A stretch of 47,386 bases of DNA from Thermoplasmata archaeon (GTDB taxonomy: Archaea > Thermoplasmatota > Thermoplasmata > Lutacidiplasmatales > UBA184), in assembly GCA_021798195.1 (NCBI GenBank), contig JAJZYH010000012.1, forward strand, positions 1 through 47,386, read 5' to 3'. How positions within the stretch are numbered: position 1 is the first letter of the stretch; every line of letters begins with the position of its first letter. This document shows positions 39,834 through 44,515 of the stretch, piece by piece. Position numbers and translations under genes: made by a program. Under the pieces are notes generated by a model. The model saw only the letters and a program-made list of their open reading frames with translations, did not search any database and was not told where the DNA came from.

Positions 39834-40085
39834 TCACCCTCCCGAAAAGGTGCCCACCAGTTCCAGAAGGCCCTTCTTCCCGAGTGGGAGATCCAGAGGG
39901 ACGGGCTCTCCCTCCCACCAGGAGGAATGCCCCTCAGGAGAGAGGCCGAGGCTCCCCATGACCTCCCGGACCGTGGTGCCCGCCGGAACCGATATCGAGG
40001 GGGGGAAGGGTTGGCTCCCATGGCCATGGACCCTCAGGCGGATCTCCACCAGGGATCGCACGGGGGAACTCTCCGGAACGGGCAT
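39834..40085 (-). CDS. beta-grasp protein ending in Gly-Gly (ThiS/MoaD/SAMP-like)
   Basis: The 83-residue product has a short basic start, then VEIRLRVHGHGSQPFPPSISVPAGTTVREVMGSLGLSPEG (the beta-hairpin and helix of ThiS/MoaD-like proteins, with gTTV before the helix). LPLGKKGLLELVGTFSGG follows and ends exactly in Gly-Gly. Such proteins are adenylated by an E1-like enzyme and act as sulfur carriers (MoaD, ThiS) or protein modifiers (archaeal SAMPs, Urm1). No E1 or MoaE gene is in the window. It is 16 nt downstream of tRNA-Ser on the same strand. A link to thiolation or to the molybdenum block is possible but unproven. Confidence 0.78.
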   Translation of the reverse strand: MPVPESSPVRSLVEIRLRVHGHGSQPFPPSISVPAGTTVREVMGSLGLSPEGHSSWWEGEPVPLDLPLGKKGLLELVGTFSGG

Positions 40086-40101
40086 GCCTTCCTCGGGGAA
40101 G

Positions 40102-40187
40102 CGCTGAGGGGGAGATTTGAACTCCCGCGGAGTGAACCTCCACCGGTTTTCGAGACCGGCGCCTTGACCGAGCTAGGCTACCTCAGC
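40102..40187 (-). tRNA. tRNA-Ser (anticodon CGA)
   Basis: The minus-strand acceptor GCTGAGG pairs with CCTCAGC; the discriminator is G, as usual for archaeal tRNA-Ser. The anticodon stem-loop is CCGGT-CTCGAAA-ACCGG. There is a long variable arm (TGGAGGTTCACTCC), and the T arm GGGAG-TTCAAAT-CTCCC is complete. Length is 86 nt with no intron. A weak TATA (TCATATCC, about 40214-40221) lies about 30 nt upstream. Confidence 0.95.
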
Positions 40188-40241
40188 TTGGTCCCTGAAC
40201 GTCCTTGAGCACGGGACGGATATGAGCTTCTCCGCCCCGCT

Positions 40242-41617: not shown

Positions 41618-44515
41618 ATGCAGCGGGCATTCCTTGGTCCCCACGTCAAGGTCCCCACCGGTGTCGAGGGACTCGACCGGATGCTGCACGGTGGGCTCCT
41701 CCCGGGCCGTCCCTACCTGGTGGTGGGACCACCGGGCTCGGGCAAGACCACCTTGGCCCTGGAGTTCCTTCTCAAGGGAGTTCGGCAAGGCGAGGAGGTC
41801 CTCTACGTCACCGTGGAGGAGCCGCCCAATGAGATCCGGCGGAACTTCGCGGGCCTGGGGAAGGACCTGAACCGGGTGTGGGCCTTCGACGCCATCCCGG
41901 ACGTGATGCGGTACGAGAAGACCCCGTTCAAGGACATCGCCGCGGTACGGGCCGCGACGCGTCTCGGGGACATCGACCCCGGGATCCGACAGACCGGGGA
42001 GTTCTCCTCCGTGGAGGTCACCTTCAGCGCCCTCATGCAGACGCTGAAGATGGAGAGCGTCCGCCGGCTCTACAGCCGCATCGTCATCGATTCGCTCACC
42101 GCCCTCAAATTCTTCTGCATGAAGGGGTTCGACGAGACCCAGGGGGCCCAGGTGTTCCTGCGCTTCCTCTCGGACCTGCGCATCACATGCCTCCTCACGG
42201 TGGAGAGCCCCGCCGTGGACCTCCCCACCGGGGAGCGCCTCCTCGCCCGGGGGGAGATCCACCTGTTCACCTGGAACGTCGACGGGAAGACCGTACGGGC
42301 CATCGGCATCGAGAAGTTCCGCGGAAGCACCCACGATCCCCACCTGCATCCCTATCGGATCACCGCCCACGGGATCGCCATTGACCCGTCGGTGGCGATC
42401 TCCCGGGAGACCCGGAGCGTGGAGGAGCTTCCCGCCCCCGCTTCCCCGGAGACGGGGGGCGCGCCCAGCGACTCGGAGCTCATGATCGAGGCGCGCCGGG
42501 CGATCCTCACGGTCCAGGAAGACGTCCAGGAACTGCTCGAGGTGGGAGTGGATGTGGCCCCCGTCCGGAAGATCGTGGGGGACGCCCTCTCCCATCTCCT
42601 GAAGATGGAGGTGCGCGAATGCCTCGCCCTTCTACTCGAGGCCCGGCAGATGGTGAACCACCTCATCCTGACCTATCAGGTCACGCAGGAGGTCCGCGCT
42701 GGGGGCGAACCCCGCCTCGCCGCGCGGCTCCCCCCAGAACCGCTTCCGGGCGCCGTGGTGGTTAGCCCCAACGCGCCCGTCCCACCGGAAGCACGGGCCC
42801 AGACCGCCACGGAACTCCTCCCCGTCCTGCGCAGGGTCATGACCCTCATGCAGAGCGCACTGGGGGACTCCGCACGGGAGAACCTGCCCGAGGCCCTCCT
42901 GCGGAGGGCCACCGCGGCGGTGGAGATCCAGGTCGCTTCCGCCGAGACCCAGGATTGGGGCGGCGCCCCATCAGGGAACGGATCCCAAGCATCCGATCCC
43001 CATCCGCCTCCCGTGGCCTTCCCCCCGTCGTCTCCCCCCCCGGAAGCCCCCTCCGGGGAAGGAAAGGAGTCGTCCCACGGTTTAGATGGGGGGAAGGAAG
43101 GATCCTTCACGGGGAGTTCCCCATCACCGGCGACAAAGGTCCCGGGGTCTCCGAGCCCTGGGGTTCCCCTCCCCACCCCCCCGGTCCAAGCCCCGGAGGG
43201 ACGGGCTCGAGGGACCCCAACGATGGTTACCGGTCCACCCTCCCCCGCTGCCACGAACCCGCCAACCTCCCCCGTTCCTCCCTCGGACACCGCACCCGGC
43301 GACCACCCGGCTCCTCCGCCCTCGTCTTCCTTGGGAGGCGGATCCGCACCGGTTGCGAATCAAGCGGCCCCATCGCCGGAGCGCGGCTCCCCTCCCGTGA
43401 TGGGACCTGGATCCACGGCGACCAGGGCCGTATCCGGAGGAGGGGAGCCTCGCGCAGAGCGTGGACCCCCGACGGGACCCCCCCCGCCACAGGCCCAGGA
43501 GGAAGCGGCTCCGGCCATCCCTGAACTCTCCCAAGCGAAGCCCGCGTCCGCCCCTCCACCCGCTTCCACGGCTCCCGCCGGACTGGCAAAGGAGACATCA
43601 CCCGCCGTGGACGTGAAGGGCCCCCCCACTCCCCCTCCCGCCATCGCGGACGAATCTCCCGCCGTGGTGGAACGGGACCAGCCCAGAGCACCGGTCCTCG
43701 GTCGGATCCCGGCACCGGCAACCCGTCCTGCATCTCCACCCGCGAACGCCCCCGTACGCAGCACCCAGGCTCCTGCCGGGACCCCTTCGCCTCTCGGGGA
43801 GGTCCGGATCCCTCCGACGAGCCCGCTTCCATCATCCCACCGAGGTGATCCTCCTCCCCCGGCAGGGACTCTGGGGGGAGGCAGAGGGGGACAACCGGGG
43901 GCTCCGAAGCCGGAGGAACCAAGGGCCGGATTGCACGAGGTGAACGGGACCGGGAGTGAGGTTCCACCCGCCCCGACCAGTGCACCTCCGACCGTGCCTT
44001 CGGCATCCCCCCTTGCATCCGTCGGGGAGGACGGTGCCCGGTCCGAATCCGGCCCCTCCGGCGCGGGAGAAGCCGACCCCGTGGCCCCCCTCCCTTCCGA
44101 GAGCCGCAAAGAGGGTCCAAACCCTATCCCTGCCGAAGGTCGTCCCGCCCCCCTTCCCCCATCGCTTCCCGGGGGGGGAACGGTACCGGTGCTTGCTCCC
44201 CCCTATCTACCGGCGCTTCCCTCTCCGGCAATCGCCAGGGATACCGTGCATCTCCCGCCAAGAACAACGGTCGCGTCCTCCCCGGAACTCTCGGGGGAAC
44301 CCGGCACCGGTTCCTACGGGGGCGGGATGTCCGGTACCTCGCCGGGGGCACCCCAGAAGCCGGAAACTCTCCGGAGGCGGCGTCGGTCGGGTCGGGGGAG
44401 CCTGAAACCCAAGAAGGGTCATTCGGAACGCAGGAGTGGCGGTTCTCCGGACGGGCCGGAAGATACGGGGGAGGTGATGGATGAGCGCGACGGAGCCGAT
44501 CCCTCCGCCCAATAG
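41618..44515 (+). CDS. KaiC-like RecA-family ATPase with helical domain and very long Pro-rich tail
   Basis: The 965-residue frame holds three parts. Residues 1-265 form a single KaiC domain: VPTGVEGLDRMLHGGLLPGRPYLVVGPPGSGKTT (Walker A 37-45), YVTVEEPP (catalytic glutamates 67-68) and SRIVIDSLTAL (Walker B). Residues about 285-360 are helical (EVGVDVAPVRKIVGDALSHLLKMEVRECLALLLEARQ). The rest is about 600 residues of Pro, Gly, Ser, Ala and Glu, low complexity, ending in a basic patch (RRRRSGRGSLKPKKGHSERR). The stop-free tail up to the next gene suggests it is translated, though a frameshift cannot be excluded. Archaeal KaiC-like proteins act in signalling; the partner is unknown. Confidence 0.8.
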   Translation: MQRAFLGPHVKVPTGVEGLDRMLHGGLLPGRPYLVVGPPGSGKTTLALEFLLKGVRQGEEVLYVTVEEPPNEIRRNFAGLGKDLNRVWAFDAIPDVMRYEKTPFKDIAAVRAATRLGDIDPGIRQTGEFSSVEVTFSALMQTLKMESVRRLYSRIVIDSLTALKFFCMKGFDETQGAQVFLRFLSDLRITCLLTVESPAVDLPTGERLLARGEIHLFTWNVDGKTVRAIGIEKFRGSTHDPHLHPYRITAHGIAIDPSVAISRETRSVEELPAPASPETGGAPSDSELMIEARRAILTVQEDVQELLEVGVDVAPVRKIVGDALSHLLKMEVRECLALLLEARQMVNHLILTYQVTQEVRAGGEPRLAARLPPEPLPGAVVVSPNAPVPPEARAQTATELLPVLRRVMTLMQSALGDSARENLPEALLRRATAAVEIQVASAETQDWGGAPSGNGSQASDPHPPPVAFPPSSPPPEAPSGEGKESSHGLDGGKEGSFTGSSPSPATKVPGSPSPGVPLPTPPVQAPEGRARGTPTMVTGPPSPAATNPPTSPVPPSDTAPGDHPAPPPSSSLGGGSAPVANQAAPSPERGSPPVMGPGSTATRAVSGGGEPRAERGPPTGPPPPQAQEEAAPAIPELSQAKPASAPPPASTAPAGLAKETSPAVDVKGPPTPPPAIADESPAVVERDQPRAPVLGRIPAPATRPASPPANAPVRSTQAPAGTPSPLGEVRIPPTSPLPSSHRGDPPPPAGTLGGGRGGQPGAPKPEEPRAGLHEVNGTGSEVPPAPTSAPPTVPSASPLASVGEDGARSESGPSGAGEADPVAPLPSESRKEGPNPIPAEGRPAPLPPSLPGGGTVPVLAPPYLPALPSPAIARDTVHLPPRTTVASSPELSGEPGTGSYGGGMSGTSPGAPQKPETLRRRRRSGRGSLKPKKGHSERRSGGSPDGPEDTGEVMDERDGADPSAQ

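Follow-up and report, generated by a model that had tools for sequence, protein, structure and literature searches.

Why does the gene for a small protein ending in Gly-Gly lie immediately behind a tRNA gene, and what does the protein do? The question is raised by a locus in the 47,386-nt stretch of DNA analysed here as a whole (the window), which is contig C61 of G000, the genome (1.75 Mb in 73 contigs) of a soil archaeon of the Lutacidiplasmatales (Thermoplasmata). On the minus strand, an ORF of 83 aa with an ATG start (39834..40085) ends in TFSGG, with the two glycine codons at 39837-39842 and the stop codon at 39834-39836. ARAGORN places an intron-less tRNA-Ser(CGA) at 40101..40187 on the same strand, leaving a 15-nt spacer (40086..40100) between the tRNA 3' end and the ATG; since the ARAGORN call includes one base past the discriminator, the gap is 15-16 nt. 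Both ORF translation and ARAGORN agree with the first-pass annotation, which had described an 83-residue protein ending in Gly-Gly about 16 nt behind a tRNA-Ser on the same strand. The tRNA-Ser(CGA) pattern has a single match in this genome, where the tRNA and the protein gene are separate and do not overlap. A TATA-like CATATC located 32-37 nt 5' of the tRNA (40219..40224, minus strand) is the probable promoter of both genes together. The spacer is too short to hold a promoter of its own, so the protein is likely expressed from the tRNA promoter, and the two genes are probably co-transcribed. According to family scans, the next gene upstream on the minus strand encodes a bifunctional phosphoglucose/phosphomannose isomerase, while the downstream neighbour, an uncharacterised protein, gave no significant match. 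The window also carries, at 41618-44515, a KaiC-like ATPase whose C-terminal tail is very long and rich in Pro and Ser.

The protein was assigned to a family by profile and structure comparisons. It scores below the curated cut-offs of both SAMP2 models, PF21965 from Pfam (E 7.5e-4, 20.3 bits against a cut-off of 27 bits) and NF041919 from NCBIfam (15.5 bits against 70 bits), and we therefore file it as SAMP2/TtuB-type rather than as SAMP2. PF21965 is matched by 52 of the 58 aligned family members at E <= 0.1. A PDB search with the window sequence alone gave nothing useful; a profile built from the 58 relatives retrieved TtuB (E 1.2e-6), SAMP2 (E 1.2e-5) and also PF1061, with MoaD-type chains appearing only weakly (6jc0, E 0.0068; 1vjk, E 0.8). 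The AlphaFold2 model of the window protein is a beta-grasp fold (mean pLDDT 84.3, pTM 0.68) whose last residues are of low confidence, fitting a free tail, and Foldseek returned TtuB chains (5ztb, 5gha) as top matches. The beta-grasp core and the role as sulfur carrier or archaeal modifier proposed in the first-pass annotation are supported. Besides, Gly-Gly forms the very C-terminus in all 28 homologous ORFs, which were collected regardless of how they ended (locus L029, a spurious match within a long frame, was left out), so that no relative lacked the Gly-Gly or ran past it. The Trp/Pro-rich character of the core had also been taken as a hint of a separate subfamily: a WW or FW motif is indeed present in the carriers of genera g1, g2, g3 and g7 and absent in g4-g6, which amounts to variation at the genus level and not to a subfamily. 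We conclude that the window protein is most likely a ubiquitin-like sulfur carrier of the SAMP2/TtuB/Urm1 type.

Regarding the partners that such a carrier would need, an E1 was matched in 38 of 41 genomes, with a single match in G000 (G000:C48:5013-5714). The frame of the latter reads as a MoaD-like domain, ThiF and rhodanese in that order, the rhodanese being our reading of the sequence; taken at its full length (G000:C48:5013-6077), the N-terminal MoaD-like domain ends in SIAGG and the C-terminal part is rhodanese-like. ThiS and ThiF matches fall in one frame in many members of the Lutacidiplasmatales family, and G000 has a further ThiS-like ORF ending in SIAGG. All 36 high-quality genomes of the family have NcsA/TtuA, G000 a single one (G000:C4:15471-15782). 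A MoaD-like ORF ending in YSGG adjoins MoaE in G000, on a contig other than that of the window; the E1 and the MoaE that the first-pass annotation wanted sought elsewhere in the genome are hence both there. As G000 has one E1, one NcsA/TtuA and a distinct MoaD adjoining MoaE, tRNA thiolation is most likely, by analogy with known carriers, the dedicated role of the window protein. The carrier may also act as a protein modifier, conjugated as SAMPs are.

The association with the tRNA is widespread in the Lutacidiplasmatales family. A carrier homologue (E <= 0.01) was found in 91 of 103 family genomes, including all 36 of high quality and all seven genera, and in 86 of the 94 family loci examined tRNA-Ser(CGA) lies directly 5' of the carrier on the same strand. 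The other eight loci comprise four in genus g3, where the tRNA is not adjacent (in two of these four genomes it is found 2 to 3 kb upstream of the carrier), one from which the tRNA has moved elsewhere, and three truncated at contig ends, among which L028 retains the 3' end of the tRNA. A search of named genomes with the tRNA-Ser(CGA) pattern gave 88 matching stretches, almost all in Thermoplasmata MAGs, among them Candidatus Lutacidiplasma silvani AcS3-62. Outside the family, we surveyed 40 loci chosen from 102 genomes with a match; in 14 of them, from eight families, tRNA-Ser(CGA) and the carrier are arranged head-to-head on opposite strands, no more than 500 nt apart. Three of four class-level loci have this same head-to-head order. 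Judged from gene order, the link is older than the Lutacidiplasmatales family: it would have been divergent first and become co-directional within this family. A few of the 40 loci present another tRNA beside the carrier, namely tRNA-Thr(CGU) twice and tRNA-Ala(CGC) once, with one further unclear call (L359). The three clear cases (L357, L362 and L395) all carry C34, by chance or through some link to the biology of the wobble position.

Among the 86 linked loci, 74, which belong to the sister clade of genera g4, g5 and g6, carry an insert in the T loop of tRNA-Ser(CGA) at position ~59/60; it measures 33 nt in 69 loci (L099 included), 32 nt in three and 30 nt in two. The 66 distinct 33-nt sequences share the anatomy of a tRNA intron, with T stem, short central helix, two 3-nt bulges and a covarying intron helix. 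Helix h, GGGAG/CUCCC, is found in all 66, and each of the four pairs of the outer intron helix is formed in 52-66 of them. The central helix has three standard pairs out of four and one A-G mismatch, which we count against our interpretation, and the exon borders thus offer a near-canonical predicted bulge-helix-bulge motif. Cuts placed within the bulges as in the known motif restore the loop UUCAAAU. EndA, the enzyme that would make these cuts, was found in 39 of 41 genomes. Two EndA domains in one frame suggest the alpha'2 type. The available text of PMC6379350 classes this type as narrow in specificity. With the A-G mismatch, splicing may thus be less than efficient, which would fit a transcript used in two ways.

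The intron-bearing tRNA is missed both by ARAGORN with default settings and by the Rfam tRNA model. One could argue that these genomes simply hold a second, intact tRNA-Ser(CGA), an explanation that we rejected because the pattern matches only once in 87 of the 89 matching genomes (twice in G077 and G097); likewise, there was no other Ser(CGA) among the 30 tRNA loci of G003. This last genome, rated 100% complete, yields only 31 Rfam tRNA matches, with the intron-bearing Ser(CGA) among the missed ones, and other tRNAs in it may have unusual introns too. All the genomes compared are metagenome assemblies, and the presence of the arrangement in more than 70 independent ones leads us to reject a sequencing artefact. 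Upstream of the tRNA, 67 intron-clade loci share an AT peak ~31-27 nt 5' of the gene (0.93-0.99 at 30-28 nt), which is where an archaeal TATA box would lie. There is no room for a further promoter between tRNA and carrier in this clade.

The reading frame of the carrier extends through the tRNA in the intron clade. When we translated from the codon situated in the variable arm, 20 nt before the intron (-20), imposing no requirement on the C-terminus, all 73 intron loci that could be tested (L099 and L110 included) gave a product ending at the carrier Gly-Gly, with lengths of 95-100 aa, against two of the twelve intron-less linked loci. These twelve are spread over the three phases (5, 4 and 3), have no ATG in the variable arm in any case, and possess their own start codon 3' of the tRNA. 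The -20 codon is ATG in 71 intron loci and TTG in two, both of which have an in-frame ATG at -26. The GC-rich insert is free of stops in every frame, so that on this count the carrier frame is no different from the others. The variable arm itself is nearly frozen in the intron clade, with five types in 72 loci, always with in-frame starts, while that of tRNA-Ser(UGA) from the same genera comes in 30 types in 71, none of them with an ATG. According to these data, the carrier of g4-g6 shows a predicted start in the tRNA variable arm and a frame that continues through the T arm, the intron and the acceptor strand. The tRNA and its intron would thereby contribute a tail of about 22 extra residues to the N-terminus of the protein. 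When the full-length product is modelled, the beta-grasp fold is preserved and residues 7-17 fall below pLDDT 50; the tail thus lacks confident structure and is probably a by-product that the protein tolerates.

Locus counts are not counts of independent events, since the lineages are related. In order to count events we used a tree of NcsA covering 84 genomes, 55 of them with the trait, built with a quick method and having many weak branches. On it, the stretch from the tRNA end to the end of strand 1 of the carrier underwent at least 13 length changes, all of them frame-keeping. The tally comprises these 13 length changes, two changes in intron length and five changes of intron state, for which the shortest reading is one gain and four losses (in G022, G015, G115 and G057; the intron-less G062 is not on the tree).

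Two natural experiments bear on which RNA would be translated. The three genomes with a 32-nt intron form one clade, and hence represent one event; they carry one extra base (+1 nt) behind the tRNA, which compensates the intron length in such a way that the frame is kept in the unspliced RNA and lost in the spliced one. The other case is G057, in which an intact, intron-less tRNA-Ser(CGA) lies about 1 kb upstream of the carrier and a decayed tRNA remnant, without acceptor and D arm, directly precedes it. ARAGORN did not find this remnant even with introns allowed. The remnant still begins with an ATG where the variable arm used to be, and from there the frame continues into the carrier; here the tRNA has evidently decayed while the carrier reading frame survived. 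Between the two tRNA copies of this locus (L171) there is a segment of about 0.7 kb, with an ORF of about 200 residues, possibly the trace of a duplication or an insertion.

These results can be weighed against an explanation in which the tRNA gene does not encode the start of the protein. The carrier could begin at a GTG, a TTG or a rarer non-AUG codon behind the tRNA, after an RNase Z cut, and the variable-arm start would then be incidental, owed to inheritance and to an arm that is palindromic and frozen. The arm motif is in fact partly palindromic, the window and the other intron-less loci do start behind the tRNA, and 39 of the 73 intron loci hold at least one in-frame GTG, TTG or ATG between the tRNA end and the end of strand 1 that could start a shorter protein, a count that speaks against the overlap. 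In the other 34 there is no ATG, GTG or TTG over this stretch, and such a scheme does not account for a frame kept over at least 13 length changes and a compensated 32-nt intron, for the ATG and frame that outlive the tRNA copy in G057, or for an arm that is free to vary in the sister isoacceptor tRNA-Ser(UGA). We regard a downstream start as unlikely.

Still less probable, in our judgement, is that the spliced RNA serves as the message, with EndA acting first and the ligated RNA escaping 3' processing to be translated from the variable-arm start. Introns of 30 and 33 nt (71 of 74 loci) keep the frame either way, which would allow it, but the three 32-nt loci, all of one clade, lose the frame once the intron is removed, and the spliced RNA would be expected to adopt an ordinary tRNA fold and to undergo 3' cleavage. 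As for the function of the protein, the first-pass annotation had offered MoaD, the carrier of molybdopterin synthase, as an option. Although fold and Gly-Gly end are the same, the separate MoaD/MoaE pair elsewhere in G000 led us to reject this identity, and the profile ranking, with TtuB and SAMP2 first, makes it very improbable.

The explanation that we favour, with a probability of roughly three in four, is that of a SAMP2/TtuB/Urm1-type carrier expressed from a tRNA promoter, whose gene overlaps the tRNA in the sister clade and imposes there a choice between splicing and translation. By analogy with the known systems, the single E1 would adenylate the C-terminal Gly-Gly and charge the carrier as a thiocarboxylate, and the carrier would hand the sulfur to NcsA/TtuA for tRNA thiolation. 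In the window, a tRNA-mRNA dicistron would be transcribed from the tRNA-Ser(CGA) promoter, and processing of the tRNA 3' end would release a nearly leaderless carrier message. For the sister clade, the reading frames, the clade with 32-nt introns and the remnant in G057 point to the unspliced pre-tRNA as the carrier mRNA. Removal of the intron by EndA together with end processing would yield tRNA-Ser(CGA), whereas with the intron retained the T arm could not form and the transcript would be a carrier mRNA. We lean towards the full form of this proposal for g4-g6, in which a single transcript is both pre-tRNA-Ser(CGA) and carrier mRNA, with a variable-arm start and a coding intron; splicing would give the tRNA at the expense of the message, retention the message at the expense of the tRNA, and the supply of a tRNA-modifying factor would be set against the capacity for tRNA splicing.

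If this is true, one set of bases serves both for a tRNA and, in frame, for the beginning of a protein; about 70 species have kept this arrangement, and at least four lineages have undone it. Such a locus would represent a natural switch of one RNA between a non-coding and a coding fate, and would provide a concrete reason for keeping a tRNA intron. The overlap would also explain why annotation fails at these loci, where tRNAs are missed and the carrier start is probably misplaced by gene callers. The window protein, if our reading is right, is thereby placed in the family of tRNA-thiolation carriers. A literature search, with subscription journals largely outside its scope, found no published case in which a protein start codon lies within a tRNA gene whose intron is coding; the available text of PMC3491384, PMC6379350, PMC8707768 and PMC4033280 was within that scope. 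The words ubiquitin and intron are absent from the main text, as available, of the description of Lutacidiplasmatales (PMC9287336).

Compared with known systems, the carrier resembles TtuB of Thermus and the archaeal SAMP2 and PF1061 in its beta-grasp fold, its C-terminal Gly-Gly and the presence of an E1 and NcsA/TtuA in the genome. It differs from them in that its gene is fixed to a tRNA gene, in scoring below the SAMP2 cut-offs and, in the sister clade, in having an N-terminal tail encoded by tRNA and intron. Two products from one transcript, separated by RNase Z cleavage at the 3' end of the tRNA, are described for the tRNA-C/D sRNA dicistron of Nanoarchaeum in the available text of PMC3491384. 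The locus studied here would likewise give a tRNA and a second product per transcript with an RNase Z cut, but this second product is a protein message, and in the sister clade tRNA and message share nucleotides, so the 3' cut would destroy the message. T-loop tRNA introns with a bulge-helix-bulge motif have also been described, as the same partial text of PMC6379350 indicates. As in those, the intron lies within the T loop and its predicted splicing gives an intact loop; unlike them, it is located inside a protein reading frame and kept in frame. Dual-function RNAs, finally, are single RNAs with both a coding and a non-coding role, and the sister-clade transcript would differ from the others in that its non-coding product is a tRNA, whose own bases encode the N-terminus of the protein.
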